Source: Deroplatys truncata
Taxonomy: Eukaryota > Arthropoda > Insecta > Mantodea > Mantidae
Assembly: GCA_030765065.1 (NCBI GenBank)
Contig: CM060988.1
Span: 195,608,565 to 195,672,564 of the forward strand
Reading direction: 5' to 3'
DNA: 64,000 bases
Every line of letters starts with the position of its first letter. The first letter of the stretch is position 1. Made by a program: the position numbers and the translations under genes. The notes under the pieces were generated by a model. That model did no database searches. It worked only from the letters and a program-made list of their open reading frames with translations, and was not told the DNA's origin. This document shows positions 28,445 through 53,959 of this stretch, in pieces.

Positions 28445-28492
28445 TCACATTCTTGCAGGCTCACGGCATACTGGACACCACAGACTCCCTCC
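28445..28492 (-). CDS. RING-finger membrane protein, exon 3 (terminal)
   Basis: Sixteen codons in phase 0 encode GGSLWCPVCREPARM and a TGA stop. The preceding minus-strand sequence is an excellent acceptor: a long T-rich tract ending TTTTTTATAG. The CPVC supplies the last two zinc ligands of the RING that begins in exon 2 (35919-35772), whose donor (AAT|GTAAGTG) is also in phase 0. With exon 1 the coding length is exactly 348 bases. The predicted protein has 115 residues, and its RING sits at the extreme C terminus. Assembled by eye; the shortness of the exon is the main weakness, but phase, splice sites and zinc-ligand order all agree. Confidence 0.7.
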   Translation of the reverse strand, partial: GGSLWCPVCREPARM

Positions 28493-28499
28493 CTATAAA

Positions 28500-29700
28500 A
28501 AACAAAAAAAAATAACAACAAAGATTAACATCACCACGAAGAAGGGGTACAGATGTTATTTATCCTCTTACTAGGTGATTCTATGTGTACAAATAAATGA
28601 ATTATAATACTATTTTAATCTTTAAACTCAGAAAAAGTATTATGTGTTACTTAATATGTGTATTGACTTTCTCTACCCATTCTTCAACTATTATTATGAA
28701 AGCTTATTCTTAGCATGTCTAACGCTTAAGACAGTACAGGTTAAATGAGGTTCACTGTTGCCACATGTACTATATGTAAGCTTGCAATTTTGGCATGCCA
28801 CTGTGATCAGTCTACCAGTTTAATGTCATCTTGTGAATGATGCATCACCAAATAGTGAAATATTTGCACTGCTATTTAAGGCAAGACATTTAATTTTCAT
28901 GTCTCCTTTTTGTATTTTTGGTACTTCAAAATATGATTTTACAGGCATAAAAATATATATTATCATAGATATATGGAGAAATAAAAGATATAACATTATA
29001 GGCTATCTTTACTGTTTATGCTTGACAAAATCAGATTCAACATGGGTGGAAGGTTTTCAAACAGCAAAGAATGAACAATGCACCGCACTCAGCTTTGCTT
29101 TATTCCATTATATTGCACTAACCTAGCATGGTTTTGTTTCCCCCACACATTTTGCTTATGGCGTCCTTAGAGGTTCTTTCATTTGCTCCTTTTTTATCCC
29201 TATTCACTACTATTTTTGAACATTCGGTAACCTTAGCTGTTTCTATTACTGGCTCACTAACGCTAATTTTACTTGAATAATACTGGTCAACATTGATTCT
29301 GTCGTATAAAGGAAAATATGTGACTTTAATGGAAATCAGCGCTCTGATTTAAAAAATGAAGTCTGTTTTTGGCTATCACCGCTAGTTTTTATGATATGTG
29401 CATATATGTCTATGGTGCTAAATTCATTCAGCTTATACAGCTGACTGCTGTGTTTCATTATGTTATTCTAAATCTGTTGTTGATTTTCTTCCTAATCTGA
29501 TCACTTCCATCCTCCCTTATCACCCAGATGTTTATGTTTATATTCCCAGCACTTAGCAGATTTGTTCTGTGTGCCAGGTCTGTCTTCTTGTGAGGTATTT
29601 ATGTTTACATTTAGAGCTATCATAGATCTCAACTTCAGTTGAGCTGAAAGCTTATGTTAATATGCACATTCATCTTCTATATGTATATGCTAAAACAAAA
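28500..29700. other. Unassigned intronic sequence
   Basis: This is part of intron 2 of the RING gene. The 97-codon frame at 28833-29126 has no recognisable domain. A truncated X-like motif (TTGACTTTCTCTACCCATTC) appears at 28663. Confidence 0.35.
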
Positions 29701-30317
29701 GTTTGAGTATGACTTTTACATCAGGATTACGCAGGAGACAGTGTCCTCAGAAGTTTTGTTACATTTGTGGGTGTAATGTGTTTGATGGGAAGGTATGTAC
29801 AACAGACTCACAAACAAAGAAGCTATATTACTCATATTTCAAAGAGAAAGTTGGTGATCAGGATAAATCGCCTCATATTGCATGTAACCGTTGTGTTGAG
29901 GGATTACGTTATTGGTGTGAAGGAAAACAGAAGACAATGCCATTTGCTAAACCAACGATATGGAGAAAGCAGCAGAATCACCATGATGATTGTTACTTTC
30001 GCATGTGCAAAGTTGCTAGCTAAATTAAATATTCAAATCTGAACTCAGCTACACGGACTATTCCTCATGGACCCGAACTACCCATACCTATACCACCAGC
30101 AGATCTCAGTTTTAGTGAATCTGAAAGCAGCTTCATGACTTCTGACAATGAGTTTGTTTTCTGATCCAGAAGAATTTGACAATTCACCACAACACTTTAA
30201 TCAATTTGAGTTAAATGATTTAGTGAGGGAATTAGGCCTCACAAAACAAAAAAGTGAATTACTGGGCTCGAGACTACAAGAGAAGAATTTGTTATCACTT
30301 GGCGCTACTTTTCGTGG

Positions 30318-30520
30318 TATAGGAATAGCAAAATACAGCTCCACAAGTACTATGCAAAATATCAACTTGTGTTTTGTGTGGAATTCAGTTGAGAGCAAAT
30401 GCTGACGATGGGAACAAGCCGTCTCCCGAAACGCGTTCAAGTAAGATTATCATAGTGATGTAGTGTAACAACCCTCAACTCTCTATTTTAAATTAAAATA
30501 TAAAAGAGTGTAATCTTATT
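30318..30520 (+). mobile_element. Short Penelope-end insertion with hammerhead-like motif
   Basis: The sequence interrupts the coding order of the surrounding pseudogene. It carries CTGACGA (30402), a GGGA/TCCC stem, GAAA (30428-30431) and the palindrome ACGCGT followed by TC (30431-30438). This is the canonical layout of a minimal hammerhead as found in Penelope-like elements. Edges are approximate. Confidence 0.55.
30402..30438 (+). ncRNA. Hammerhead ribozyme-like motif with palindromic stem III
   Basis: All three signatures are present and undamaged: CTGACGA, GAAA and ACGCGT plus TC at the predicted cleavage position. Stem II is GGGA/TCCC with a 10-nt loop. Such a short palindromic stem III is expected to work better as a dimer. 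This is the best hammerhead candidate in the window. Confidence 0.55.
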
Positions 30521-31040
30521 CAACAGTTGAACAGGAAAGCATATGAGCCATGTAACTGGCATCGTTTATTGATTCTTCCAAGCAAAGTCTTAAGGCAGTA
30601 TTACTTCATAATGGCAAGAAGTTAGCTTCAATACCGCTTGCACATTCTATGAACATAAGAGAGTCTTATGAAACTCTGAAGTGTGTTCTTGAGAAAATTA
30701 AGTACCGCGACCCTGAGTGGCAAATATGTGGTCACTGGTCTGTTGCTAGGCAACAGGGAGAAAGCACAAAATTCCCTTGTTTTCTTTGCAAATGGGATAG
30801 CAGGGCGATGGACAAACACCGGGAAACTGACCAATGGCCTGAGAGGCAGCAACTGGAACCTGGATCAAAAAATGTTACTAATGTGCCTCTTGTTGATTAT
30901 CAAAAAATTCGACTACCTCCGTTACACATAAAACTTGGCATGATGAAACAATTCGTAAAAGCACTTGACAAAAGTTGCCCTTGTTTCCAGTACTTATGCA
31001 CAAAGTTTCCATCATTGTCACAGGCTAAAATCAGAGAGGG

Positions 31041-31342
31041 GGAAAATTAAATTAAATTGAGTTTTATTTATAGACACTCTATAACTGCTATGGTCCTTAG
31101 CATGCCATTCTATATTGGGCATAAAAGATCGGTAATTTTGCTCAGAGACCTCTTTATCAGGCTTGAGTTTCTTTTACGTGCCATAAATCTACGACACGGG
31201 ACCACCGCCTTTACTTCCGTTCTGAAGGAAGCCATGCTAAGGATTTTTACAGCCAAAAAAATCCATCGCCCACTGCCAGGTTTGAACCCGCGACCTTGGG
31301 AGCTAGAGGCTAGCATGGTAACCACTACACCACGGAGGACAA
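31041..31342 (-). mobile_element. tRNA-derived SINE (family A), copy 6, minus
   Basis: Full-length minus copy with head GTCCTCCGTGGTGTAGTGG and B-box GGTTCAAACC. It interrupts the pseudogene between KIREG and the following VFDGPHI-like codons. Degenerate TSD around CAGAGAG on both sides. Confidence 0.88.
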
Positions 31343-31759
31343 CACAGAGAGCGGGTATTTGATGGACCACATATAAGGAAATTGATGAAAGATGTTAATT
31401 TTACCAGCTCTACGAATGAAATTGAAAAAGATGCATAGAATGGATTCAGAGAGGTTGTTAACAAACTTCTGGGCAATGTGAAAGACCCTCAGTACAAAGA
31501 AATCGTAAGAAATATGCTGGAAAATTTCATTGCTCAGCTGTAATATGAGTTTAAAGCTTCATTTCCTCAAGTCGCATCTTGACTACTTCCCGTTGAATTT
31601 AGGAGCTGTTAGTGAAGAGCCAGGGAGATTGGGACGTACATATAATGGCTGGTTACTGCTGGTGTCTTGCACACAACGAACCTACCAGAGAACACTCGAG
31701 AAAATCATGTACACTGAAGTTCCATACGAAAAGAAAAAGGGGTACACAAAATAACTAAC

Positions 31760-32145
31760 ATACATTCTCAAATTCAGGTACACTTTAATGTTATTATTAT
31801 TCTTTATTTTCTTTAAAAGTTGTACAATTATGTTTTCATGAAACATTGTCATATTGTCAAAACAAGCTGTGCTATGGAATAACGGAATGCATTTTTTAAT
31901 TCTGTACACTGAAATTAGTAAAATACACATATTTTTAATGTACAGCAGAAAAACTGTTTTCATTTGTAATCTAATGTAACCTAACATCTTCATTATTATT
32001 TTGAAATTTCTTCTTAGTTTACCAGCATTTCGTCTCTTTCTAGCTTCTCCCTCCATAGCTATGAATATTTATGTAAAATAGCAAATCATTAACCTACATA
32101 ACATTTCCTTATATCTAATGTTACAGGCATGAAGCAGAACTTAAA
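31760..32145. other. Unassigned stretch
   Basis: The 124-codon minus frame at 32056-31682 is low-complexity (Lys/Asn/Ile-rich) and overlaps the pseudogene tail in antisense; not accepted as a gene. Confidence 0.35.
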
Positions 32146-32372
32146 ACCTGGTGGAGGGCGTGGATTGTTTTTCGGGTGTAAAAATCCTTAGCATGGCTTC
32201 CTTTAGAAGGGAAGTAAAGCCGGTGGCACTGTGTCATAGGTTTACAACACGTAAAAGAACCTCAAGCCGGATGGAAGCCTCTGAGCAAAATTTCCGGTCC
32301 TTCATGCCCAATATAGAATGGGACGCTAAGAAACACAGTAGTTAAGGAGCATCCATAAGTAAAACTCAATTT
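32146..32372 (+). mobile_element. tRNA-derived SINE (family A), copy 7, 5'-truncated
   Basis: It begins within the B-box (ACCTGGTGGAGGGCG) and continues through the shared body to GTAAAACTCAATTTA. The tRNA head is lost. Confidence 0.8.
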
Positions 32373-33355
32373 ATCTTAGAAGGCAGTTCATGCTTGGTGC
32401 CTTTTATCTGAATAGATGGATGAGTTTTGTTTGTGTTATACAATAAATGCAAGAAGGTGCATGATTTCAGTTTCTTTTAAAAACTGTCTCCAACCCTCCA
32501 ACATTTTTTCTTGCTTGGTCCCTGTTGTAAACCCAACAACAAAGAAGTTTCTTGCTGGCTAACTTTTTTACTGCACAGGTATAGAATTCTCTGAAAATAT
32601 TTAATTAAAAAAATTATAATGCTTATCTTATTTAAAGATAGAAAACTTAAACTTGGCAGGTATCAGCATTCTAGTCCACTCTAGCTGAGAAAAAAGTATT
32701 GTTGCATTCTATTTATTAGTTATTGGTGATAAGCACAGGAACAGCAAATATTGGACTTTTACTGAAAAACTCCTTTTCTTTATAAATTTGTGCCCACAGG
32801 AATCTATAAAGGCTCTAAAAATGATATAAAGTGATAGAGAAAGTGTTCTGTATAGGATAATGTATTGAAAGCTGAAAATTATAACAACTGAATATTTACA
32901 CCATGTTATTAGAAACTTGGTGACAGTGCAAGAGTAGAAAAGGGAGAAGCTAATGGCAACATGTATGCATTGGATGGAGACAAGGATATCCCATTTGTCT
33001 CTATACTGTCTTTTAAGGTTGAGACAAACTATACTTCATATTAATCAAGATAAACATTTGCAGAAACTGTCTTATTGCATTCTTCCTTGTAGCTACCAAG
33101 AGACCCAATCAACTATGGACCAGCTGTGCTGAGTTTTCCCACTGGGCATGTGTTTCCTGTCGCTACTGCAATCAAGGTCATGCTAATTGCGTTGACCGTG
33201 ATGTGTCGTAGTTCAGTGTGAGTCAGTGCAGTGCAGTTGCTACGAGCTATTTATTATTGTGACCTGTATTTAGTCACAATTATGGTGCAGCATATGTTTA
33301 CTACTGCACAGCATGTATTTATGTATGATTTGTATACGTTAACACAGTCAGCTGG
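32373..33355. other. Unassigned intronic sequence
   Basis: AT-rich. A 50-bp X-like segment (AATCAAGATAAACATTTGCAG) is seen at 33044-33064. No gene was found. Confidence 0.35.
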
Positions 33356-33359
33356 TCAA

Positions 33360-35110
33360 GTGCAATGATTTGCAGAACGATTCCTGGGTGTAAAGGTTCC
33401 AGGCGTACAACAATCTATAATCTGCATTATAAATTTCAACCCAAAGGTAGTGTTCCATCTAAGAAACTAACAGCCGCATAGGATTCTTACCAATGAAACA
33501 TTAAACGACATCAGTCATTGTTTGGAGGCTTCCCCCAAAAAGTCATTTAGGCATTGTAACATGCTCTTTAACCAGGTGATTGTGTACGTAGGCACACATT
33601 TTGTGAGTGAAGTTTCAGTAGTATACAAATGGCAAACTAGACCCATACTTAATATTCTTCTTGGATGAGGCCTGGTTCCACCTTCATGGATATGCATGTA
33701 CATAAAATAATCATTATCGGAGCTCTGACAAACCTAATATTGTTCACTAACTAAGCCTTCATGATGAAAAAATTTGTGTATGGTGTACCATGAGCGGATA
33801 ATGAATTATAGGTCCCATTTTTTTTGAGTCAGCAGTTAATGCCTCCACATTGTGAATACAATTCTGCTCCCATCTTTAGAGAACTAACATACAGAGGGTG
33901 TGCCTTTGCCCTTTACCAAAAAGACCAATTTGAGACAGTATTTTTATCACTTAAAATGATATCAGTCTAATTATATACTATTTAAAAAAATAACAGCCTG
34001 CCTAAACGCAATATGCATATGTTATAATATATAAAATATATATTACAGTCATTTTATTATGTTTATTTTATTACGTATATGTATAAAATGTTGTGTGAAT
34101 GTATTAAGTAGTTTAACAATGTAGGAGGTGTGAGAATAGAAGCAAACAGAATTACATAGCAGAAGCTGAAAGTTGCTAACAAAGGTAACCTTAAGACAAC
34201 AATAAATTATAAAGTTAAAAAGACTACTAATAGTCCTTGGAACAATACTAATGTAACATTTAAAACAGTTTATAAATAGTCACATGGATGTGGAAAGAAA
34301 AGCCAGGGTAAAAATAAAATATTCTATTGGAGTAGGCTTAGCCAATCAGAAACTAGAAATACAGAAATGTACAAATTCAAAAGGTTGACACTAGTAGATA
34401 GCGTACCCACGCAGTTAGGTTCGGTATGGATTCAGTAATTGTATGTGAGACATGATAATTCACTGCGGTGAGGATAATAAAAATGTTTACCAGTTAAAAG
34501 TGTAATTAAAAATAATCTCACAGCTCTATAGTAAGATACATCAGTGAAGTGTTATTTAACCGTGTGAAGGATTAATAAAAAAAAAAGTACAATACAAAAA
34601 TTATAATTTGTGTAAGCCTTGTTCTTTAGCCATACCAGCCCTAATAAGAGATACTTGTTCTAAAAAATACTACTGACGCAGCTAAGGCATAAATAATAAA
34701 TAAATAAACATTAAAGTAATTATTACACATAAAATAAACACACGACACTGCTGCAAAAGTTGGTTCCTAAACGTGGGGCAAAGACCACCGGAAAGTTTGT
34801 ACCTAAAATGTGGGGCGAACACTCCTAGAAACATAACTCCCGCAAATTGGCATCCATTACATATGTGGGGCAATAACTCCTTCAAGTTGAAAGTGTGTTT
34901 GAGGACAGAATTAGTAGATTAGTGCCCCCTTAGTCCCATGATCTAACCCTCTGCGACTTTTTTCTCTGGGGTAAATTAAAACAAAGTATACAAGACAAAC
35001 CCTCACACCCTGAAAATATCCATAAAAATTGTAAGCATTTTAGGTGAACTATGGCATGTGATGGGTACTTTCTTAATGAGGTGCCAAAAATATATGGACA
35101 ACAAGATGCC
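33360..35110 (+). pseudogene. Decayed Tc1/mariner-superfamily transposase, interrupted
   Basis: Plus-strand fragments align in order with the DDE transposases common in insects. A helix-turn-helix-like start comes first (CRTIPGCKGSRRTTIYNL near 33375). A catalytic FLDEAWFHLHGYA lies at about 33655, then KICVWCTMSG and IIGPIFFESAVNA near 33770-33830. After a gap come the C-terminal LTLCDFFLWGKLKQ segment near 34945 and a ENIHKN helix. The catalytic Asp/Asp spacing cannot be checked because about 1 kb (33905-34895) separates the halves. That spacer has no coding signal. There are many stops. Confidence 0.65.
33905..34895. mobile_element. Unidentified insertion between the transposase halves
   Basis: About 1 kb that breaks the transposase between its second and third catalytic regions. 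It has a right part with repeated GTGGGGCAA/GTGGGGCGA motifs (34770-34875). I see no TIR or TSD that I trust. Confidence 0.35.
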
Positions 35111-35771
35111 AACTTCAGCACTTCTTTTTATAATGTTCGTAACCAAAGCCTTTAAATATAGTAAAGGAAATTGTGTATGGCTGCATCAGATCATTCAATG
35201 ACAGCTGCAACACTGCGCAGCTGGTTCATAGTTTATTGGGTCTCACTGTCCAAGGCGATTATGTAAATACAGTAGGCTTTAAGCGATAATCAAATCTTTT
35301 AACAGTAGGTTGCTTTGTGATGGTTTTGAAATTTCATCCTCTTTGCATCGCCATGGAGGGGAAAAAAAAAAATCTCTTTAGGAACCTATCCATCACTATA
35401 GTGATGGCCAAAAATATATATTGACAACGACGGTGGCCAGTTTCAGATTTCCTTTCATAAAGTTGGTAAGTAAAGCCTTTAAAAGTAGTTTTAAAAAAAT
35501 GTTATAGTATGGTTTCATCCGCGCCTTTCTATGATAGCGGCAGACAGCAACGAGTGCCGAGGACGTGGACAGGAAAAACACTGCGTGGTGGTTCGTAGTT
35601 TTTTGGCTCACCCTGTAGTTTCTGTGTAAATTTGTAGTTACATTATTGAAGCACAGTTACCCCTTGTTGTTCTGTATTTGGTGATTCATTATTTTCTAGT
35701 TCTGCTAGTTTTCCAAAGGAGGGGGGTGATATACACAAACAGTTAATGTTGAGAACCAAATTATCACTTAC
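35110..35771. other. Intron 2 start of the RING gene, with transposon-like duplicates
   Basis: The stretches around 35080-35230 and 35405-35610 share the pattern AAATATATGGACAAC / ATATTGACAAC ... TGCCAACTTCAG / GGCCAGTTTCAGA ... CTTTAAA. They look like two related C-terminal ends of the same transposon class as at 33360. No intact gene. Confidence 0.35.
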
Positions 35772-35919
35772 ATTTACTGACTGCTCTGCAAACCACCTTT
35801 GTATGCACTTTTTGTGGTACTTATGCCTGCAACTCAGCGTTTGGAGTTGCGTAGGGTCACACAGCATACTGTCATGACATATTGGACATGTGACTTGCTC
35901 GTAGTTTTTACTTTCTCTC
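35772..35919 (-). CDS. RING-finger membrane protein, exon 2 (RING core)
   Basis: 148 bases on the minus strand, preceded by an acceptor ending TTTTGTTTCAG and followed by the strong donor GTAAGTG. After one base that completes a split codon, 49 codons encode CPICHDSML, then LSCRHKYHKKCIQRWF. This is C-x2-C-x15-C-x-H-x2-H-x2-C, the first six zinc ligands of a C3H2C3 RING. The last two (CPVC) come from exon 3. Such RINGs recruit ubiquitin-conjugating enzymes, so the product is probably an E3 ubiquitin ligase, which is an inference. An ATG-started reading from 35867 runs through the donor into the intron and is an artefact. Confidence 0.8.
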
Positions 35920-35943
35920 CTGAAACAAAATTATAAATCATCA

Positions 35944-36426
35944 TAAGTTATTTAAACCTTCTTACTACCTACCTGTAGTAAGTAGCAACTATTGCATTTC
36001 ACCCAAAAATGTGATGCCAAAATTTCACTGAAATACGTGTTTTGAGACTCCCTGAATCCAGTTAAAGAATTATTAAAACAAAAGGGTTCTTGTGAACAGT
36101 ATAACTCATAAACAAAAAGTTGATTAAATACCAAACTTGGCATTTAATTTCAACATCTTCCAAGAATGCAACATAAAGATTTTTAAGAAAATCCCCCACC
36201 CCAAACAACCCTTTACACATAAACATTTTTGTTACTTTTGATTTTCTCAAAAATGGCTCTAAATGATTTTGATTAAAGTACTATGTGTTTTAAGATGTTT
36301 GCATAAAAAAATAAACTTTTCTTGAATTTCCTGGGAATGGCCTATGAAGTCCTCTTCATTCTGAATGACTTTTGTAAAATTGGTGGACCTTGAGAGATAG
36401 AAAAAATCTTAACTACAGAAATAAAT
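35944..36426 (-). mobile_element. X-family 3' part, minus, truncated by mariner
   Basis: The minus X copy runs from the terminal region (about 35944) inward to AAATCTTAACTACAGAAATAA, where it meets the mariner left end at 36429. Its terminal region lies only about 25-45 bp from the exon 2 acceptor. Confidence 0.7.
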
Positions 36427-36428
36427 TA

Positions 36429-37625
36429 CGAGGGTCGCCCAGGAAGTAATGCATCACATTTTTTTTTCAACAATTATTTATTGAACATAATGAAACTTAC
36501 ACACAAGAATGAATGATGTTTCTTGTACACTCCCAATTTTTTCACGTAATCTCCTTCCGGTTCTGTGGCCTTCCTCCAGTGAGACACAAAGGCGTGTATG
36601 CCCTGTCAGTACCATTTGTTCTGATCACAAAGCCATTTCTTCATTGTGCGAATCACCTCATCATCCTCAAAATGTCTTCCACAAATGGCATCCTTTAATG
36701 GCCCAAGCAAGTGGAAGTCTGAGGGAGCTAGGACAGGACTGTAGGGTGGATGGGTTAACACTGTCCAACCCTGTTTGGTGATGTGTTCCGAAATCCTCAA
36801 ACTTGTGTGAGGCCGAGTGTTATCATGTTGAATCAATCACCTGGGTTGTTATGGCGCCCAATTCACTGGAAGCGCTTATTGAGTTTTGTTAATGTGTTCA
36901 CATATGCTTCAGAATTAATGGTGCTGCCTCTTGGCATCATATCAATGAGTGTGGCACCCTCAAAGTCCCAAAACACAGTGATCATGACCTTACTGGTGGC
37001 AGCAGTTGCTTCGAATTTTTTCTTCTGCGGAGATTGAGGATGACGCCATCCCATCGAATGTCATTTTGTTTCGGGCTCAAAATGGTGAACCCAGGTTTCA
37101 TCACCTGTCACAATCCAGGACAAGCAGGCTATTCTCTCAGCTTCAAAATGTTGCAGCAACTCCCGTTGTAAGACAGTGCAGAAACCATAGTGCACAAACT
37201 TTTGAGTAACCAAGAGCAGGAATGACTGCATCCACATTTCCTTTGCTGTTTGACAGCTTCAGCACCAACTGCTGAGTTGTTATGCATCGGTCCTCACGAA
37301 CGAACACATCAGCAAGCTGCATCCTGTCAGGTGTGACAGCCGTGGATGGCCTTCCCTAACACTGCAAATCTTGGAGCTCTGCCGAACTGCCTTCTAATGG
37401 CCTCACCCTCTGTGCCCAGCAACTAACTGTACTTGTGTCAACCGCAGAAGCTCCATAAACACAAGCATTTGTGATTGTTCCCAACAGTTTCTTTCTCCAC
37501 AGTGAGAAATTCAATGACAATATGCTGCTTGTAACATGCATTGCTGCAGCTACACTGTCTGTCGGAGGAAATTGTTGTTGGCAGAGAAAAAACAATGTGG
37601 TGCATTACTTTCTGGGCGATCTTCG
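36429..37625 (-). mobile_element. mariner element with TIRs and TA duplication
   Basis: The left end CGAGGGTCGCCCAGGAAGTA matches the complement of the right end (CGAAGATCGCCCAGAAAGTA) over more than 30 bp, both flanked by TA (36427-36428 and 37626-37627). It is 1197 bp long, close to the usual 1.3 kb. The transposase on the minus strand is broken into several frames. Confidence 0.92.
36606..37595 (-). pseudogene. mariner transposase (SETMAR-like type), broken
   Basis: In order on the minus strand: N-terminal helix-turn-helix remnants (37595-37356), then DRMQLADVFVREDRCITT, and VTGDETWVHHFEPETK with the first catalytic Asp near 37110. VFWDFEGATLIDMMPRGS comes next near 36970, and finally IQHDNTRPHTS and LAPSDFHLLGPLKD in one clean 76-codon frame (36836-36606). 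The Asp in HDN and the Asp in SDF are separated by 34 residues, the mariner D34D signature. All three catalytic residues survive, but frameshifts separate the parts. Confidence 0.88.
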
Positions 37626-37639
37626 TAGATTTTGTTAAA

Positions 37640-38829: not shown

Positions 38830-40561
38830 TGTCTTGTTAGACAAGACTGTTACAAAAATGCTTGAAGGTCTTTGTACAGCCTATGGTAGATAAACAATGT
38901 CCCGTGCTGAATGTTTCAGTAGGATAAAGCATTTAAAAATGGACGGGAAAGTTGAGAGCTGGAAGGAGAGGGAGCGCCCACCACTGCTGCCATCATTGTG
39001 TGCACGAATCCATGTGTAACTGTTACCGAACTTGCAAATATGCTAGACATATCGGTGGAAACATTCACACAATTTTAAGGGACCAATTAAACATGTCAAA
39101 ATTATGTGCTTGCTGGATTCCCAAAGTACTAACTTGTTCAAAAGCAGCTTCGAGTTGATATGTGTAACCAATGGAAACAGTGAGTCCAAGAGAAAGAGGA
39201 TGACTGATGCAAAAACATTTTCACTATTGATGAGTCATGGGCATACTGCTATGACTAGAAATGAAGAGACAAAGCACAGAGTGGGTTGAAAAGAGGCAAA
39301 CATGCCTCAAAAGGCATACGTTCACAAATCTGCAAATATGGCATTAGTGATCACATTTTTACTTTCTCTGCTACGTATAGTAAGTAGGGGAAGTATTATA
39401 TTCCACCCAAAAATTTGATACCGAGATTTCACCAGACATACATGTTTTGAGACCCCCTGAATCCAAAAAAAGCATTTTGGAAACATGTCCGTGTGTGTGT
39501 GTGTGTCTGAACAGCATAACTCAGAAACGAACGGTCGGATGAACACCAAACTTGGTATTTAGGTTCAGTATCTTCCAGAGATGCGACACGAAGGTTTTCA
39601 GGAAAATCCCCCCACCCCAGATTACCCTTTACATGGAACATTTTTAAAAAATTTTAATTTTCTCAAAAATAGCTCTAACAATTTTGATTAAAATATCATA
39701 TGTTTAAGATATTTTCATGACAAATAAAATGTATATCTTGAATTTTCTGAGAATGTCTCCAAAAGTATTCTTCATTGTGAATGACTTTTGCATAACTGGT
39801 AAACCATAAGAGATAGGGAAAAGTTTACTACACAAAAAATGTAGATCGCGTTAAGATACACAATTTATGTCATATACATTTTTTGTTGTTGAGTGAACCA
39901 TTTTCGAGGTATTGTTTGTTATTCCCTTAAATTTTCCAATACTTATACTTTTTCTCAAATTCATTATTCATTTTTTTTTGTCCTGGTAAGGCAAAGAGAA
40001 TGGAATACTCCACATAGCAACCAGCTCTTAAAATATTTGACTATAGCTTAAAGCCTACCAATTCCCCTTGCATCTACAAGAAAATTAGCAATAAGATTAA
40101 CATCTCGATATCTCAATTAACAAGAAGCATATGGAGAATAAGCATTTGAAAAAATAGTTTGTACAAGAGTAGAGAAAGTCATGTGAGTGTAACACATCAG
40201 ATATTTTTTTTTATTGTCGTGGCATGGTGTATACACATCAGGTCCCCAGAGGTGACAGTTTTGCAATCGTAGTGTCCTTTACCAACTGATTGAAGGTCAC
40301 ATCCCAAAAAATGGAGAGATTTGGTTGCCAAGTGGAAGCTTTATCATGACAATACACGTCCTCACATGACACCAGCTATTACAATCTTTCTGGCCAAGAA
40401 ATATATCTCCACGGTTCCTCCACCCTATAGCCCAGTTCTGGCACCATGAGATTTTTTCTTTTTGTTTTGTTTCCAGCTGCCCAAAAGGACCTCAAAGGAT
40501 GATTGTTTGACTTTGAGAATGAAGGAGTGAAAGCTTTAGAGGCAATTTTGAAGTACTTAAA
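38830..40561 (+). pseudogene. Ancient mariner transposase, split by an X insertion
   Basis: The left part (38830-39352) encodes remnants of CVTVTELANMLDIS, an RDQLNMSKLCA helix-turn-helix and IDESWAYCYD with the first catalytic Asp at about 39230. The right part (40206-40561) encodes KWKLYHDNTRPHMT and VPPPYSPVLAP with a stop where the Cys before the third Asp should be, then DFFLFVLF. The X element at 39353-40205 lies exactly between MALVITFF and the next conserved segment (a CRGMVYT-type reading). Frameshifts and stops are numerous. Confidence 0.75.
39353..40205 (-). mobile_element. X-family element, full-length, minus, inside a mariner
   Basis: Minus copy running from TATCTGATGTGTTACACTC (40205) to the terminal AAAGTAAAAA (39353). 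The interrupted target was a run of T on the plus strand. There is no duplication longer than that run, so this copy is useful for defining true X ends. Confidence 0.88.
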
Positions 40562-41579: not shown

Positions 41580-42918
41580 CGTTGCTTACTGTGGACTTAA
41601 TGAACAAAATCAAACAAACCTATGCAATGGTTTCTTTCCGAAGCTGTTTAGTAGAAACATTTCAGACTACACACATTTCCCACCGACAAATAACATTTAA
41701 AAGCAGTTGCACTAAGGCCAGGAAAAATATTGCACATGTTGATTTTTTCATAAACCTCAATCAGGTATTCTAAAACATTTTTGCAAGAACATATGAGGAG
41801 CTTAGGAACAAAACGCACTAACTCCACGGTGGATGAAGTATATTTTTATTTGGATTCCCCCTATTTTGATACTGTTGAATCGATCTGTGTGATCCATTCC
41901 TTTCATATAGCATTCCTTCCTATTGTAAAATGATTTCAAAATACACTGTTTGATTCAGTAAGCTTAGTTCACAGGCAGATGGAACAAAATGCAGTTTTAC
42001 AGAAGCAAAGAAATGCTTATGCAATGTTGTGTACATACATGCCTTTGACTGCTATATTTGTGTTCTGTGAAACTAGAAATGCTGCCAAACAGTATCACAT
42101 ATTGTCTTCTTAGGTATATTACGTCAAGCTAAATGAACAAATGTAAACGAATCTCCTTACTTGAAGGTCTGAGATTGGGAGCTGTGTCAAGGAAGCACTA
42201 ATAGTAGATTTGTTAAGTATTACAGCATGGAAAAGGAAATAATTGTGGCAGGTAACAGTAATGGTACCAGAAAGAGAATGAAAATGCAGGAAACGAAAAG
42301 CAGCAAAGAAGTAAAACCGAGGTAAATAGCTTGTATCACGTCTTAAAACGTATTTTTATATTACTATCATGCAAATAAATGCAGTGGAACACCTGCAAAG
42401 GATACTGAGATGACGTACTATGTTGTTTTGTCTTTCATGCTAGTTTTTAAAAAATAGCAAAATGTATTAAGTTCTCTCTTTTTTTGCATTATCCTTCATA
42501 TACAGTGATAAGATCCAAACCTAATGAACTTTTTGTCATCCCTCTAAAACCATTCATATCTCCACTTAATTGGGGGTTACATTTGAGTGTATACCACAGG
42601 TCCAGGGTTTAGCGTTCTGAAGCAGAGTCAATATAGCAAAGAAGATGTTGATGCATTCTTACAGAAGAGGTTCTAAAGCAAATGGAGATGTGAGGCTTAT
42701 CTGAATTTTATGTGGATGAAGATGGCACCAGTATCATATATGTCAATAACGCTATAGCATGCATAATACTTATGAATTAATGAAATTCAATATGTAGAGG
42801 AATCTAGAAGTAATGAGTTGATTTAGTAGATGTTGCCTGGACAAAATAATTTGGGCCCAAATTAGTTGTCTCGTTTATATGCAAAATCTGGTAACTTTTG
42901 AAGTAGGTTCTGCAAGTG
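41580..42918. other. Unassigned intronic sequence
   Basis: No feature supported beyond AT-rich intron of the RING gene. Confidence 0.4.
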
Positions 42919-45083: not shown

Positions 45084-46199
45084 CAGTAGAATCTCGTTAG
45101 CATGTTTTTACAGGAACCTAAGGATTTGGACATCATAGATAGGAAAACGTGTTAACAAAAAGACAAAATATGCAATTTAAGAACATAGTTATGTAATAAA
45201 ATCTAATAATTACTACGTCTCCATGGGTAATTGAAATTGATTTCGAGTACAATCTGTGTTGAATTCATTACATGTTCAAATGGATTTGGATACACAAAGC
45301 CTGAGAATAAATAATTCAAGCTTTTATGTTGGTCAACTTGGATTTTTGAGGTTATGAAGCTTTTTGAGAAAATAAATTGCGAATTATGGAAGCAACAAGA
45401 GTGGCTTTGCTGTGCATTTTATTACACATGTGATAACAATTTCCGCTAAAAAAGAAAAAAAAAATTACAAGTGTGCATCATGTTATGAGTGCAATAGGCA
45501 AATGTATCTTTGGCGTATTCAATACGATTTGAATACAGTAAGTGTTTCCATGCAACAAATTTCATTCTGATCCTCTTCTGATCCTATTTTCCAAGAGGAA
45601 AGTTTTGTTTTTGCATTTTTCCCTTCTTTAAAAGCAGTTTTAATCAAACAATTGCATTTAAGGTTGACGGAGGAATGTTTAACTTCCGCACTATATCCAC
45701 ATGTTTCATATTTGGATTGTGATCTATTTCAAGGATTTTCAGTTTTTCACTATTGGTTATTTACTACAGTTTCTTTTTTTCATTGCAAATGAAAAGTTAA
45801 AATACAATCTACGTATGTTTGCTCAACACTCAACAGTAGAAACTATCGTTGGCATTTACGACGCCAAGGTAAATCATTCTCTATCCCGCCCACACAAATA
45901 TTTACATACATGCATGTGATTGGCTGCCGGTATCCACCCCGTGACCGAGGATTGACCAAAGTAGCCAATGAGGACGTCAAACTTTGAACGTGTTAAGCGC
46001 CTTCTCCCACTGGACCGATCAAGGATTGGCCAAAGCAGTGAATGAGGACGTCAAACTTCAAACGTAGTAAGCGGGACCAGGAAACACACTAAGCAAACGT
46101 TATTTGTTACATTTGGTGATTTGGTACCGGGACTTTTATAATTGAACGTAATAAACGGAAAAACGTGTTAATGAGGAACGTGCTAACGAGATTCCACTG
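45084..46199. mobile_element. pogo/Tigger-type non-autonomous element, TA TSD
   Basis: The left end CAGTAGAATCTCGTTAGCAT and the complement of the right end (CAGTGGAATCTCGTTAGCAC) match over about 20 bp with two differences. Flanks are TA (45082-45083 and 46200-46201). The insertion site is proven: with one TA removed the piggyBac frame reads straight through the codons for D-N-W-F-T-S. No transposase is encoded. An internal direct duplication of about 85 bp (the AGGATTGACCAAAGTAGCCAATGAGGACGTCAAAC type) lies at about 45945-46060. Confidence 0.9.
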
Positions 46200-47310
46200 T
46201 AATTGGTTTACCAGTGTATCGCTTGTGAATGAATTGCGCAAAGGACAACTTTCTTTCATCGGTACAGTACAACAGAACACTAATTTCACTTATCGAAAAG
46301 GTCTCAGTCAGTACAAAAGCATATTTGACTTCACAAAAAATGAAACACTTGTTTCATATGTTCCAAAACAGTAGTTTTGATCTCAATTCTACATGTTTCA
46401 TCCAAACAGTTATAAGAAGGTGCTGAGAAAAAGCCTGAAATAATCCTGCATTACGACACTAAATCTGGAGTTGATGTACTAGATAAACTGTGTGCCACAT
46501 ACAATGTACCCAGAACAACAAGAAGGTAGCCCATTGTAATTTTTTACCATATCTTGAACATTGCAGGTATTAATTCTAGGGCTATCTTCCTTGGAAACCA
46601 AAATAAATATTCCACAAGGTAGGAGGAGTATTTGAAAGCACTGTCTTTAGCTTTACTATTGCAACAGCTACAAAGGAGAGCAACAAAGAAGTATTTAATT
46701 ATCAATTTTCCTTAAAATAAGTAAGAAACAAATCAATTGTAATCAAATCTACCCGGTGATTTGAAAGGCCTTTTGACAATATATAAACCTGAAGAATCCG
46801 CAGTAGATGAATTGTCAAATACACCGCTATCCACATTGAAAAGTAAACGATTGAACCCTGCATCAAAGACAAAAAGAATTGCAAAGCTAAATATAATATG
46901 GGAAATGCAACACTCCCCCCTGTTTGAACCAATGTGCTAAAATTATTGGCGATAGTTGCTTAGTCAGGGTAAACATGGAGAGGTAGTAGGCGATTCTGAG
47001 TAACTGAACATTTGAAATTACAAGTTGCATGCATACCTGAAAATGGCAATGTATTTCCATATATTTATTGTAATACAATTTATAACGTATATGTACTCAT
47101 ATTTTAGCTCGTCTTTTTATGTTGTAAGATAATACCTATTAATGAAGGCCGTGTATACTTAACCTAAATAACAGTAAACATAAGAAAAAAAGGAAAATAC
47201 GCGAAAGAAAAAATAAATACAAACAATAACAACAAATAAACAGTGCGGGTCTACTAAGCCCCTAGCGACCAACAGTGTTCTACCAAAGCGTGCGCCTGAC
47301 GGAGGGTTAA

Positions 47311-47639
47311 GGAACGCATGCAAGCAAAGTGAGTGTGCTTTGGTATAACCACTGGTTGCTAATTAACCTAAGTTTATATACAAAAAAAACTAACCTAAAC
47401 CTAACCTGTCTTGAATCAGAAACCTACACTTATAATATCGTTAAGGAATGCTGTAGTCGCTATGTTTTGATCTACAATGTTGACAATAAAAGGAAAGCTC
47501 CCACAATGCCTCGGGTGGAATGTGTGCACATGAGATGCCAATGTAAACATGTTTTACATTAGTGAACATATATGTGTTAATTTTGTTCTGTTGCAATTTG
47601 TTAAGCTTTGCGAACAAGGAATACATGTGTTCATTGTAA
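47311..47639. other. Unassigned stretch with CCTAA-type repeat fragment
   Basis: A segment at 47370-47440 (TTATATACAAAAAAAACTAACC, GAATCAGAAACCTA) matches the 60-bp unit tandem at 50290 and 52980. The start of the next LINE frame lies in this flanking DNA. Confidence 0.5.
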
Positions 47640-49261
47640 TAAATGATAAGGAAAAGGCGAACATATTAAATGCACATTTTGTATCGGTCTTTCATCAAAT
47701 GGATGATAGTCCTGAACGGGAAAATAGGAGTGGTGGAGAATCGCTTTTTCAAATAATGGCGCCAAAATTACGTAAAAGGATCAAGATGCTACAGAATCGA
47801 AAATCAAGAGGGCCGGACAACGTACCTACTGAAATATTAAAAATAGGGGGAGAAGCCATGATTCCCTACCTAATGCTATTGTTTAACATGTCAATTAACA
47901 ACCGTGCACTACCGGAAGACTGGAAATCCGCTATTGTAGTTCCAATATACAAAGGGGGTAATAAAACAGAAATAAATAATTATCGGCCTGTTAGCCTAAC
48001 GTCGGTAGTGTGTAAAGTAATGGAGCATCTAATTGCAGAATACATACGGGAGGATTTAGAAAACAAACAGTGGTTCAACAAAGCGCAACATGGGTTTAGA
48101 TCCGGGTATTCATGTGAAAGTCAAACAACTTCATTAATTCAAGATTTGGCAGATGAGGTGGATGCAGGGGGAAGGACTGATGCAGTGGTGATAGATTTTT
48201 CTAAAGCTTTTGACGTAGTGCCACATAGTTTACTCATCCGGAAACTAGCAAATGCGGGACTTGATAATCGCGTTGTATTGTGGGTAGAACAATTTTTGAA
48301 AGGGAGGACGCAAAGAGTAAGAGTAGGTAGAGAACTGTCAGAAGGGGGGACCGTAAGTTCGGGCGTGCCCCAAGGTTCGGTACTGGGCCCGTTACTGTTT
48401 CTTATCTTTGTTAATGATATCCATATAAACATTAAATGCCAGATAAGACTGTTCGCAGACGATTGTATTATTTACAATAAGATTAGGAATTCCATGCATG
48501 AGACTGCTCTTCAGGACGACCTAAATGAAATCAGGCGGTGGGCCGAAGCAAACAAAATGACAATTAATGCTGGGAAAAGTAAGTCCATTGTTTTTAGCAG
48601 AACTAAGGGGAAGATTATACATAACTATCAAATGGGCGGGGAACCAATTCCACAGGTGGACAGCTGCAAATATTTGGGAGTGTGCTTGTCAAGTAATGCT
48701 GGATGGGGGGAACAGATAAATAGTACATCTAGGAAAGCGTGGAAAGCATTGCATTTCGTAATGAGAATACTGAAAAAGGGGAGCGCAAAGACCAGGGAAC
48801 TAGCCTACAAATCTTTAGTGCGGCCGGTTATGGAATATGGAGTAGCATGTTGGGACCCATACAGAGTCAATCAGATTGATTCCTTAGAAAAAGTGCAGAG
48901 AAGGGCTATAAAATTCATAAGGAGAGGTAAAGATTTTGGGTTTACAAAAGGTAAAGAGAATGAATGGGAACCGCTAAAAGTTAGGCGTAAAAAACATAGA
49001 TTAGTTGCGTTATTTAAAGCTTATACTGGTTCATATGCTTGGGCGGATGTTAGAGAAAGGTTAGAGAATCCAGCACACTACGGTCGAAACGATCATCTGT
49101 TTAAAATTAGGGGTAGAAAGTGCAGAACCGACGTGGGAAAATTTTCTTTTGTTAATAGAACCATTGAGGAATGGAATGAATTGCCTGTAGCAGCCTTTCA
49201 GGGCTGTCCTCTGACCTTAAAGCAGTTCAGAAATAATATTAGCAGAATAAATGTTGGTTAA
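47549..49261 (+). CDS. LINE reverse transcriptase, intact 3' frame (CR1/Jockey-type)
   Basis: A single unbroken 570-codon frame. Homology begins at about residue 32 (NDKEKANILNAHF); the earlier residues are probably flanking DNA, so the true ORF2 is 5'-truncated and its endonuclease is missing. Motifs in order: KSRGPDNVPTEIL, LPEDWKSAIVVPIYK, NNYRPVSL, VIDFSKAFD with catalytic Asp 216, GVPQGSVLGPLLF, and FADD with catalytic Asp 304-305. Thumb-type KYLGVCLSS and YGVACWDPYR follow, and a basic C-terminal region comes last. The lack of any stop in 1.7 kb suggests a recent insertion. It would have copied itself by target-primed reverse transcription. Confidence 0.9.
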   Translation: MFYISEHICVNFVLLQFVKLCEQGIHVFIVINDKEKANILNAHFVSVFHQMDDSPERENRSGGESLFQIMAPKLRKRIKMLQNRKSRGPDNVPTEILKIGGEAMIPYLMLLFNMSINNRALPEDWKSAIVVPIYKGGNKTEINNYRPVSLTSVVCKVMEHLIAEYIREDLENKQWFNKAQHGFRSGYSCESQTTSLIQDLADEVDAGGRTDAVVIDFSKAFDVVPHSLLIRKLANAGLDNRVVLWVEQFLKGRTQRVRVGRELSEGGTVSSGVPQGSVLGPLLFLIFVNDIHINIKCQIRLFADDCIIYNKIRNSMHETALQDDLNEIRRWAEANKMTINAGKSKSIVFSRTKGKIIHNYQMGGEPIPQVDSCKYLGVCLSSNAGWGEQINSTSRKAWKALHFVMRILKKGSAKTRELAYKSLVRPVMEYGVACWDPYRVNQIDSLEKVQRRAIKFIRRGKDFGFTKGKENEWEPLKVRRKKHRLVALFKAYTGSYAWADVRERLENPAHYGRNDHLFKIRGRKCRTDVGKFSFVNRTIEEWNELPVAAFQGCPLTLKQFRNNISRINVG

Positions 49262-49712
49262 TTAACTAGTGTACTCATTTCACAAACTATACTATTAAAG
49301 TTGACACTACCAGGTTGAAAATACTGGTAACTAAATATAAGGACCAATTGTAAATAGTTAAGTACCTCGAAAATAGTTACGTACTTTGTAAATTGTTAAG
49401 TACTTTGTAGATAGTTAAGTAAATTGAGAATAGTTAAGTAAATTGTGAATAGTTAAGTAAATTGTGAATAGTGAAGTAAATGGTGAATAGTTAAGTAATT
49501 GTGAATAGTTAAGTAAATTATAAATGGTTCAGTAATTAGGGATTTTAAAAGCTTTGTTAATATTTAAAATTAATCATTTTGTATTGTTAGTCTTGTTTAT
49601 TATTATTATTATTGTAAGCTAGTCATGGTGATGTAAATTTTGTACGGTTTAATTCTGCCACCGGGAAGTACCCAATTGCAGAATAAATAAATACATACAT
49701 ACATACATACAT
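47640..49712 (+). mobile_element. 5'-truncated LINE copy with short tandem 3' UTR and ATAC tail
   Basis: It includes the RT frame, then a 3' UTR with a run of TAGTTAAGTAAATTG-type repeats (about 10 units, 49350-49530). It ends GCAGAATAAATAAATACATAC followed by an ATAC microsatellite, a typical LINE 3' end. No TSD was identified with confidence. Confidence 0.85.
49350..49530. repeat. Short tandem repeat in LINE 3' UTR
   Basis: About ten variants of a 16-18 bp unit GAATAGTTAAGTAAATT. Noncoding. Confidence 0.85.
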
Positions 49713-50289
49713 TATGTTTACTCACTCAGCTAAGCATTCAGATGTGTGAGTGTTATTGGTATAGCAATTCACAGACCGACTGACAGATACCATACAATAT
49801 CCGATGAAGAAAGAGTCTGCATTCTGCAGCAAAATCCAAAATGAAGAAGAATTTGACTATTTGGAGAAAGAAATGGGCATTGTTTAAATACGGGGCAAAT
49901 CTGCTCTTAGTTCTCTATGTTGAAAACGGTTATGAGTGCAATGGGAAAGTGAATAAATAACCTTAATAGTGAGTTTAGAAGTTGATGCGATCCCTTCAAT
50001 AGCTGGTGCCCACCCCTTTTGGTTGTGTTACTTTTATAGGCAATTCGCGTTATGAACACAATAAACATAGCCATTCTTTTCCCTAAATCACATGCAAAGT
50101 GGGAACTGCCAACCTCAATGAAAAGGTGAAATCCGCTAAATATGCGATGTGTTTTTGTTCTTAGTACTATTTCTTCTTCTTTGTCTAGTGGTGCCACTGA
50201 AAAAAATGCAATGCATTCATATTAATAATACTAATCAAAATGGTGTGCAGAGGATGTGAGAATACAGTATATAGCATTGTATATAAGCT
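49713..50289. other. Unassigned stretch
   Basis: The 96-codon minus frame at 50197-49907 has no recognisable domain. Confidence 0.4.
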
Positions 50290-50345
50290 TATATAAAAAA
50301 TAAACTAACCTAAGAGTAACCTTGCGTGAATTCAGAAACCTAAGC
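50290..50345. repeat. 60-bp CCTAA-containing repeat unit
   Basis: One copy of the unit (AAACTAACCTAAGAGTAACC, TTGCGTGAATTCAGAAACC, TAAGCTTATATAAAAAA) that is tandem at 52980-53120. It lies directly before an X copy. Confidence 0.7.
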
Positions 50346-50356
50346 TTATATAAAAA

Positions 50357-50587
50357 ATCTGATGTGTTACACTCACATGACTTTCTCTACTCTAGTACAT
50401 ACTATTTTTACAAATGCTTATTCTCCATATGCTTCATGTAAATCGAGATATGGAAAGGTTAATCTTATTGATAATTTTCTTGTAGATGCAAGGGGAATTG
50501 GTAGGCTTTAAGCTATAGTCAAATATTTTAAGAGCTGGTTGCTATGTGAAGCATTCCATTCTCTTTAGATTACCAGGACAAAAAAAA
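50357..50587 (+). mobile_element. X-family element, left part, interrupted by another X
   Basis: First 230 bp of an X copy, ending in the ACCAGGACAAAAAAA tract. The continuation resumes at 51444 with TTAATAACGAATTTGAG, exactly the next X segment. Confidence 0.85.
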
Positions 50588-51443
50588 TCTGATGTGTTAC
50601 ACTCACATGACTTTCTCTACTCTTGTACAAACTATTTTTACAAACGCTTATTCTCCATATGCTTCATGTTAATCGAGATGTCAATCTTATTGGTAATTTT
50701 CATGTAGATGCAAGGGGAATATGGTAGGTTTTAAGCGATAGTCATATATTTTAACGCTGGTTGCTATGTGGCGCATTCCATTCTCTTTGCATGTCCAGGA
50801 CATAAAAGAAAAATGAATAACGAATTTGAGAAAAAGTATAAGTATTGGAAAATTTAAGGGAAGAACAAGCAATATCTCTAAAACGGTTCACTCAACAAAA
50901 AAATGTATATGACATAAATTGTGTATTTTAACGCGTTCTACATTTTTTGTGTAGTAAACTTTTGTCTATCTCTTATGGTTTACCAGTTATGCACAAGTTG
51001 TTCACAATGAAGAACACTTTTGGAGACATTCCCAGAAAATTCGAGATATACATTTCATTGGTCATGACAATATCTTAAACATATGATATTTTAATCAAAA
51101 TCGTTAAAAGCCATTTTTGAGAAAATTAAAATTTTCAAAAAATGTTCCATGTAAAGGGTAGTCTGGGGTGGGGGGATTTTCTTGAAAACCTTCGTGTCGC
51201 ATCTCTCGTAGATACTGAACCTAAATACCAAGTTTGGTGTATATCCGACTGTTTGTTTCTGAGTTATGCTGTTCACAGACACACACACACAAACACACAG
51301 ACAAACACACGGACATGTTTCCAAAAATGCTTTTTTTGGATTCAGGGGGTCTCAAAACATGTATTTCCGGTGAAATCTTGGTATCGAATTTTTGGGTGGA
51401 ATACAATACTTCTCCTACTTACTATACGTAGTAGAGAAAGTAA
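50588..51443 (+). mobile_element. X-family element, complete, nested in an older X
   Basis: TCTGATGTGTTACACTCACATG to TAGTAGAGAAAGTAA. The host X resumes immediately. The host target was an A-run followed by an AT-rich tract, and there is no clear duplication. Confidence 0.88.
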
Positions 51444-52055
51444 TTAATAACGAATTTGAGAAAAGTATTATTGGAAAATTTAAGGAAATAACAAGCAATA
51501 TCTCGAAAATGATTCACTCAACAAAAAAAATGTATATGGCATAAATTGTGTATTTTAACGCATCTACATTTTGTGTGTAGTAAAATTTTGTCTATCTCTT
51601 ATGGTTTACCAGTTATGCAAAAGTCGTTCACAATGAAGAATATTTTTGGAGACATTCCCAGAAAATTCAAGATATACATTTTAATTGTCATGAAAGTATC
51701 TTAAATATATGATATTTTAATCACAATCGTTAGAGCCATTTATGAGAAAATTAAAATTTTTGAAAAATGTTCCATGTAAAAGGTAATATGGGGTGGGGGG
51801 ATTTTCTTGAAAACCTTTGTGTCGCATCTCTGGAAGATACTGAACCTAAATACAAAGTTTGGTGTTTATTTGACCGTTCGTTTCTAAATTATGCTGTTCA
51901 CAGACTGACTGACACACACACGGACATGTTTCCAAAAATGCCTTTTTTGGATTTAGAGGTCTTCAAAACATATATTTCCAATGAAATCTCAGTATCGAAT
52001 TTTTGGGTGGAATACAATACTTCCCCTACTTACTATATGTAGTAGAGAAAGTAAA
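51444..52055 (+). mobile_element. X-family element, right part of the interrupted copy
   Basis: Continues the copy begun at 50357 and ends TAGTAGAGAAAGTAAAA plus an A-run of about 20. The microsatellite is reduced to GACTGACTGACACACACACG. Confidence 0.85.
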
Positions 52056-52074
52056 AAAAAAAAAAAAAAAATAA

Positions 52075-52976
52075 TCTGATGTGTTACACTCATATGACTT
52101 TCTCTACTCTTGTAAAAACTATTTTTACAAACGCTTATTCTCCATCTACTTCATGTTAATCAAGATAAACGTATGCAGACTCTATCTTATTGCTAAGTTT
52201 CTTGTAGATGTAAGGGGAATATATATATTCACAAGGGCAATATAGAAATACAGTAGCCTTTAAGCATATACATATCTCTTAATAGCTGGTTGCTAGGTGC
52301 AGCACCATTCTCTTTGCCACAGATTAATACTCTTTGCATATACAAGACAAAAAATGAATAACGAATTCTCGTTTTAGAAAATAAGTATTGAAAAATTTAA
52401 GGGAATAACAAGCAATATCTCGAAAATGGTTCACTCAACAGAAAAACTGTACATGACATAAATTGTGTATTTTAATGCGATCTACATTTTTTGTATAGTA
52501 GAATTTTGTCTATCTCTTATGGTTTACCAGTTATGCAAAAGTCGTTCACAGTGAAGAATACTTTTGGAGACATTCCCAGAAAATTCAAGATATACATTTC
52601 ATTTGTCATGAAAGTATCTTAAACATATAATATTTTAATCAAAATCGTTAGAGCCATTTTTGAGAAAATTAAAATTTTCGAAAAATGTTCCATGTAAAGA
52701 GTAGTCTGGGGTGGGGGGATTTTCTTGAAAACCTTCGTGTCGCATCTCTGGAAGATACTGAACCTAAATACCAAGTTTGGTGTTTATACGACTGTTCGTT
52801 TCTGAGTTATGCTGTTCACAGACACACAGACAGACACACACACGGACATGTTTCCAAAAATGCTTTTTTTGGATTCAGTGAGTCTCAAAACATGTATTTC
52901 CGGTGAAATCTCGGTATCAAATTTTTGAGTGGAATACAATACTTCCCCTACTTACTATACGTAGTAGAGAAAGTAA
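52075..52976 (+). mobile_element. X-family element, long subfamily
   Basis: Separated from the previous copy only by an A-run. It contains the extra ATATACAAGACAAAAAATG block of the long subfamily and ends TAGTAGAGAAAGTAAAAAA. It is nearly identical to the copy at 43501 in its 3' half. Confidence 0.88.
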
Positions 52977-52979
52977 AAA

Positions 52980-53125
52980 AAGCTAACCTAAGGCTAACCT
53001 TGCGTGAATTCAGAAACCTAAGCTTATATATAAAAAAAAAAACCTAACCTAAGGCTAACCTTCCGTGAATTCAGAAACCTAAGTTTATATAAAAGAAAAC
53101 CTAACCTATTCATAAACCTAAGGTT
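52980..53125. repeat. Tandem CCTAA-containing repeat, about 2.5 units of 60 bp
   Basis: Units of form CTAACCTAAGGCTAACC, CGTGAATTCAGAAACC, TAAGCTTATATA. The CCTAA motif recalls the insect telomere repeat (TTAGG on the other strand), but the unit is not a pure telomeric array. Confidence 0.8.
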
Positions 53126-53807
53126 GTATAAGATCCCTCGGTTATGCCCTTTGTCGTTTCACAGTTGCGGAGCTTTGCAGCATTAATTATTCATATGTTG
53201 GCAGCATTGTATTAGAGCTAGCATATGACACAGTGACATCGGTTGAGCTAGCGTATGACATAGAATGACATCTGTTGGACATATAACACATCATTTTCAT
53301 CACCAAGGAAGAGGACTAAGAGCAGATTGTCAAAATACAGAAATATAGTTGTGCCTGCTGAAAGAAACACTGACATTAAAGCGTTTAAGACAAAGTGACA
53401 AGGAAATTTGAAGACTTTTTTTCATAATATATTCACAAAGCAAAGCATAAAGCTGCTTTTGTAAATGGAATTGAAATTGCTTACTAAAATATCATAAGTG
53501 TATTTGGCTAAAATGCCTCTCATAAATGATAATGTGCAAACAATAACTGATTTTGGTGATAACAGTATTTAGGAAACTGGTATTTCCACTACAGTTAGGT
53601 GTGTAGAACTTTTAAAAGACCTTAGTATGTTTAAGATGTATCAGTTTTTCGTTTTTCCTCTCTCCTGAAAACCTGTTTATTATGCATCTAGAGCTTTTTG
53701 ATTCTATGCTTCTCAAATATTCAACTTTCTCGTGCAGAGTTACATTCTTATAACCTACGTGTGAAAAGCATTTACACTTGGAGTTCATTTTTTGGCGATA
53801 TACTGAC
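53126..53807. other. Start of intron 1 of the RING gene
   Basis: The minus frame that runs through exon 1 into the intron (to 53612) is intronic beyond the donor at 53808. Nothing else recognised. Confidence 0.5.
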
Positions 53808-53959
53808 CTATTACGATTATTATATCCTTCATGTCGCCTTCTAGTTCCTTCACCATGTAATTGAGGTTGTTCCCATTGTGTACTGGCAATGAACATACCA
53901 ATAGCGAAAGCTAGTCCAACACCCAACACAGCAGCAAAAATTAAACCTTGATATGGCAT
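53808..53959 (-). CDS. RING-finger membrane protein, exon 1 (start codon and membrane segment)
   Basis: ATG at 53959 in the context GAGAAAAATGC is the first ATG in this frame; an in-frame stop lies about 110 bp upstream. Fifty codons follow, with residues 5-25 (GLIFAAVLGVGLAFAIG) a hydrophobic signal-anchor or membrane segment. A basic linker (GTRRRHEGYNNRN) follows. The exon ends two bases into a codon at the consensus donor AG|GTCAGT. Exon 2 starts with the third base of that codon, so the phases match. Together with exons 2 and 3 it predicts a 115-residue membrane-anchored RING protein, probably with the RING in the cytosol. The function is an inference from domains. Confidence 0.75.

Follow-up and report, generated by a model that had tools for sequence, protein, structure and literature searches.

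A candidate three-exon gene for a 115-residue membrane RING-H2 protein spread over 25.5 kb in the mantis Deroplatys truncata

A stretch of 64,000 nucleotides from the mantis Deroplatys truncata (assembly GCA_030765065.1, contig CM060988.1, positions 195,608,565 to 195,672,564 of the forward strand), hereafter the window, was analyzed for a small gene that an earlier note, made from the letters alone, had placed on its minus strand. The candidate gene consists of three short coding exons separated by two long introns, and its predicted product is a protein with a single hydrophobic segment and a RING-H2 finger. The features of the model are listed below in window coordinates; a slash marks the exon boundary in each splice site.

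53959-53808, minus strand: exon 1, coding part, 152 nt, with the start codon in the context AGAAAA-ATG, the predicted membrane segment (residues 6-25) and a basic linker
TAG/GTCAGT, minus strand: donor of exon 1, phase 2
53807-35920, minus strand: intron 1, 17,888 bp
35919-35772, minus strand: exon 2, 148 nt, with RING ligands 1-6; acceptor TTTCAG/G, donor AAT/GTAAGT, phase 0
35771-28493, minus strand: intron 2, 7,279 bp
28492-28445, minus strand: exon 3, coding part, 48 nt, with RING ligands 7-8, R110 and the stop; acceptor TTATAG/G
28080..28085, minus strand: AATAAA, candidate polyadenylation signal, about 360 nt past the stop codon

When the three exons given in the earlier note were spliced, their coding parts (152, 148 and 48 nt) formed one open frame of 348 nt, equal to the claimed 116 codons with the stop and to a product of 115 residues. 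Both introns were found to be GT-AG, the first interrupting an arginine codon (phase 2) and the second lying between codons (phase 0), in agreement with the consensus sites and phases proposed earlier. The coding density of 1.36% across 25,515 bp matches the 1.4% previously given, and ligand mapping together with Kyte-Doolittle (KD) hydropathy confirmed how the content is divided, with the start and membrane segment in exon 1, six ligands in exon 2, and the last two ligands and the stop in exon 3. Splice sites were scored with approximate animal consensus matrices, and all four rank near the top of the minus strand: donors 1 and 2 are 58th and 39th among 3491 GT dinucleotides, and acceptors 1 and 2 are 21st and second among 3627 AG dinucleotides. 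Five AATAAA or ATTAAA hexamers are listed in the 944 nt downstream of the stop, the one at 28080..28085 being the first. The three coding exons probably constitute a real protein-coding gene for a single-pass membrane protein of 115 residues with a RING-H2 finger. The exons, splice signals, ligands and hydrophobic segment are seen directly in the sequence, and from them we infer what is said below of expression, topology, use of a ubiquitin-conjugating enzyme (E2), membrane and substrate.

The RING finger carries a complete C3H2C3 set of zinc ligands, of which exon 2 encodes C62, C65, C81, H83, H86 and C89 and exon 3 the remaining two, C106 and C109; the spacing C-x2-C-x15-C-x-H-x2-H-x2-C-x16-C-x2-C follows the RING-H2 ligand order. 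The Pfam profile PF13639 (zf-RING_2) was matched with an E-value of 2.3e-10 and 41 bits, above its cut-off of 27.3. Residues I64, W93, P107 and R110, the last directly after the final ligand, occupy what we take to be the E2-contact and linchpin positions. Among the best 60 of 79 matches to solved structures were the RINGs of RLIM, RNF165, TRIM21 and MEKK1, with E-values from 1.3e-6 (RLIM) to 5.1e-5; these matches are taken to indicate a RING fold, not orthology.

The join between exons 2 and 3, which brings the two parts of this finger together, is regarded as near certain on splice signals, phase and chance controls. A pattern for the first half of the RING matched once in the six frames of the window. 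The pattern CPxC matched four times, once at the start of the RING first half and once as CPxCR in exon 3, the other two occurrences (6230 plus and 2419 minus) both lacking the arginine. The CPxCR of exon 3 sits behind the second-best acceptor of the minus strand, and the two halves share a strand, follow each other in the correct order and can be joined in the correct phase. When the minus strand was put through 200 dinucleotide shuffles, the first half never appeared and CPxC[RK] appeared in 47; CPxC[RK] in an open frame behind an acceptor scoring at least 9.84 was found in a single shuffle, and the pair as arranged in the window in none. Assembly of the RING by chance from two unrelated halves was thus ruled out by the single-match halves, the splice ranks and the shuffles.

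Exon 1 contributes the only N-terminal hydrophobic segment of the protein (residues 6-25; mean KD of 2.61 across 19 residues from residue 6), preceded by only five residues. No charge precedes the segment, and residues 26-60 hold seven K/R and five D/E, a distribution that mildly favours a cytosolic C-terminus; a RING requires the cytosolic side. Small residues occupy every fourth position of the helix (A9-G13-A17-G21-A25), another register being F-L-L-I-I. When the same residues were permuted, 1.5% of the permutations had a full small-residue register, though the register was spotted post hoc; its arrangement suggests helix-helix packing.

Relatives of the protein were sought in several collections, and those recovered relate to the RING. 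A protein search with the 115 residues gave three matches at E-values up to 10 among eight candidates (best 0.013), and a wider-length search with a padded query gave six among 38 candidates (best 3.7e-5); none of these shares the membrane part. One match was common to both searches, leaving eight distinct matches whose best alignments all lie over the RING. The best relative (P0124, E-value of 3.7e-5) has two RING-like stretches, and the second best, P0125 (1.6e-3), is named a RING finger protein 32-like protein of Clytia. P0127 has a hydrophobic segment of its own (KD of 2.72 from residue 103), and its alignment starts later, at its residue 146, with 32% identity. Scans of viral contigs gave one pattern match and scans of prokaryote genome contigs gave 17, none of them confirmed. 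When exon 1 was searched alone, no PDB chain was matched up to an E-value of 10 and Pfam returned a single meaningless match (6.1). Five peptides of the protein gave no match in the literature. No homologue of the membrane part was therefore found in the protein, viral, prokaryote, PDB and Pfam searches, none of which is an insect transcriptome set. The protein database contains some insect proteins, for example named reverse transcriptases of Periplaneta americana; its insect coverage is of uncertain completeness, so the missing relative is weak evidence.

The join of exon 1 to the RING exons is nevertheless considered well supported and quite probable from its splice signal, phase and protein content, without homology. 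First-exon candidates upstream of exon 2 with a phase-2 donor scoring at least 5.5 numbered 12 entries from 10 distinct ATGs, and exon 1 is the only entry longer than 100 nt that also has a hydrophobic segment and a donor scoring more than 6.5. Its frame is also the longest stop-to-stop frame of the minus strand in the window (151 residues, where 48 frames on both strands reach 90 or more). An acceptor-like site upstream of exon 1 (54279 minus, score of 8.96) leaves room for an untranslated first exon farther upstream.

A rival explanation, judged rather unlikely, accepts exons 2 and 3 as a real RING gene and places the true first exon elsewhere in intron 1 or beyond the window end at 64000, leaving 53959-53808 as a chance frame or part of another transcript. 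Several observations count against exon 1 and mostly in favour of this rival. The join has no evolutionary support, given that no homologue of the membrane part was recovered in the searches made, and exon 1 alone has no meaningful match in PDB or Pfam. A qualifying phase-2 donor also follows nine further ATGs upstream of exon 2, including one at 41751 with a hydrophobic start, and in six other candidate entries the donor outscores that of exon 1. Intron 1 contains one possible internal phase-2 exon (44423-44334), and exon 1, if left unspliced, continues to a stop at 53612 and likewise encodes 115 residues. Among the 200 shuffles, 3 produced a first exon with a KD of at least 2, a donor of at least 6.9 and a length of 150 nt or more, and 9 did so when the minimum length was set at 60 nt. 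Furthermore, eight ATGs occur in the 341 nt preceding the start codon, by which a long 5' untranslated region would contain short upstream frames. The stronger-donor entries, however, are just 32-86 nt long and lack a strong membrane segment, the donor of exon 1 scores 6.99 compared with 5.52 and 5.98 at 41751, and the candidate at 39641 lies inside a repeat block (39351-40216). Exon 1, in turn, has the longest frame of the minus strand, brings a start codon with it and encodes a membrane segment whose small residues fall in an ordered register; it is retained here as the first coding exon.

With exon 1 in place, the product is most likely a small single-pass membrane RING-H2 ubiquitin ligase (E3) of familiar type. 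The N-terminal helix (residues 6-25), followed by a partly basic linker of some 35 residues and then by a cytosolic RING-H2 finger, would anchor the protein in an endomembrane, perhaps pairing through its small-residue face with a membrane substrate or a second copy of the protein. The RING would recruit a ubiquitin-loaded E2, leading to a ubiquitin mark on nearby membrane proteins. The earlier note, which had proposed a possibly undescribed small membrane E3 ligase, is supported in part: its gene model and its reading as a small membrane RING E3 are favoured by the ligands, the Pfam match, the presumed E2-contact residues and the hydrophobic segment.

A bolder version, considered improbable, is that of a lineage-restricted minimal ligase without orthologue outside its insect group, in which the A-G-A-G-A face of the helix would perform the targeting, by self-pairing or by recognition of substrates in the bilayer. 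If this were true, 115 residues would hold an anchor, a substrate reader and a catalyst. A helix that reads substrates would make this a very compact ligase; otherwise the protein would be one more small membrane RING protein.

It is also conceivable, and considered very unlikely, that the protein is a membrane RING protein with no ligase role, such as a decoy or adaptor that binds only an E2 or another RING. The second RING loop, of 16 residues, speaks for this and against a standard ligase: in the eight matches measured the loop has 10 residues in four, and 11, 12, 14 and 16 in the others. Nevertheless, the loop of 16 belongs to the TRIM30A-like match P0128, the MEKK1 RING was matched over near-equal stretches of 64 and 65 residues (judged from alignment ranges only), and the presumed E2-contact and linchpin positions are intact, all of which argues for the ligase reading.

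The surroundings of the exons are rich in repeated DNA. The G+C content of the window is 35.6%, and self-comparison within it assigned 33% of its length to self-repeats. The share was 36% in intron 1 and 9.6% in intron 2, and the three coding exons lay wholly outside such repeats, a result of limited power given their length. The same self-comparison ruled out that the coding exons belong to any repeat family that it could detect in the window, with low power for the 48-nt exon. At 17.9 and 7.3 kb the introns are long yet ordinary for large insect genomes, provided that the window comes from a genome of this kind, considering that the median intron is given as 3 kb in the American cockroach and twice that in the locust (in the account of PMC5861062), and that introns in the large genomes of the stick insect and locust are described as exceeding those of most other insects sequenced (PMC5691397). 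The 1.4% coding density would thus reflect the long introns more than any property of the protein. The length of the introns is probably owed at least partly to accumulated mobile elements. The case is clearer for intron 1, since the low repeat share of intron 2 makes mobile DNA a less well supported cause there. One such element was detected in intron 1.

47534..49258, plus strand: reverse transcriptase open reading frame in intron 1, open over 575 codons, RVT_1 with an E-value of 2.5e-34

This frame is read by us as probably of the long interspersed nuclear element (LINE) type. Among the best 120 of 7948 relatives, the top-scoring one is unnamed (58% identity) and the best named one, among the matches listed, is from Periplaneta americana (60% identity over a shorter stretch). 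Most of the relatives listed are unnamed; the named ones include at least six from Periplaneta americana, at least three from the bird Mycteria americana and at least one from Candidatus Thiodiazotropha. Downstream of exon 3, a reverse transcriptase fragment (26654-27226 plus), presumably Penelope-like, reached an RVT_1 E-value of 7.6e-5 and 22.9 bits, below the cut-off of 29.6. Two open frames in intron 2 (29694-31050 plus; 109 and 164 codons) had no Pfam match at an E-value of 0.01 and are, in our judgement, mobile-element-like. Upstream of exon 1, three open frames (55381-58822 minus), likewise without a Pfam match at 0.01, resemble pieces of a decayed hAT/ZMYM-type transposase. Similar frames of the form ...GWGDF.ENL.VASLEDTEPKYQVWC... 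and its variants recur at 6972, 24373, 39641, 51130, 51764 and 61343, within or adjoining blocks repeated many times in the window. Arrays of a 154-bp tandem repeat were found at 14400-15047 (4.2 copies) and 16164-17990 (11.9 copies), with 95-96% matches. Scans of the window for tRNAs and Rfam families found nothing.

The repeat-rich setting, and the failure of the two protein searches to find a full-length relative, could also fit a dead gene or fossil copy, its exons intact by chance or through recent death, a reading made extremely improbable by exons free of stops and frame breaks, four splice sites near consensus, eight retained ligands and the presence of introns, which a processed copy would not have. 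A living gene is the preferred reading. In our judgement, annotation of large insect genomes easily overlooks genes so small and so spread out; if this one is confirmed, the gene sets of such genomes would seem to miss small membrane ligases.

The protein was compared with known RING ligases. The RING of MEKK1 (MAP3K1; 9p40), for which the alignment ranges alone point to a probably similar long second loop, belongs to a large kinase, and the solved piece holds SWIM and RING domains, in contrast with the membrane protein of 115 residues found here. Proteins of the PA-TM-RING type (goliath, RNF13) are defined by a protease-associated (PA) domain before the transmembrane (TM) segment; membership was rejected, there being no PA domain among the 25 Pfam families listed out of 26 and only five residues before the helix. 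The motifs and residues specific to the next two groups were checked by eye on the 115-residue sequence. The CTL proteins (RNF111, RNF165, RNF38 and RNF44) share the RING-H2, with RNF165 and RNF38 among the solved-RING matches. The YEELL motif that precedes the RING in CTLs, a criterion taken from PMC5764321, is absent, and CTL membership was rejected on this ground; moreover, the protein has a membrane segment, whereas the group from which CTLs were defined has none in that description. The plant ATL ligases likewise combine an N-terminal hydrophobic helix with a RING-H2, and nearly 90% of their genes are given as having no introns in the coding DNA (PMC5764321). Membership of this family was rejected because the GLD motif and the ATL-specific residues of the same account are absent, with H66 in place of Leu after ligand 2 and Q91 in place of Asp two positions after ligand 6.

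The closest likeness in layout is with the small Golgi membrane RING ligases RNF24 and RNF122, which Table 1 of PMC10357820 gives as single-pass, RING-type proteins of 148 and 155 residues; the text of the same source, unlike its table, gives two predicted TM domains. Small size, a TM segment and a predicted cytosolic RING are common to these proteins and the one described here. The solved RING of RNF24 (2ep4) was matched with an E-value of only 0.012, far behind that of RLIM (1.3e-6) and also behind RNF165, TRIM21, MEKK1 and others, and is thus not the closest RING; RNF122 was not among the matches listed, so the comparison covers RNF24 only. Exon 1 alone matched no PDB chain up to an E-value of 10. 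The architecture of the mantis protein may be described as like that of RNF24 and RNF122, with no orthology to them implied, which would place it among small ligases that carry a membrane segment and a cytosolic RING.

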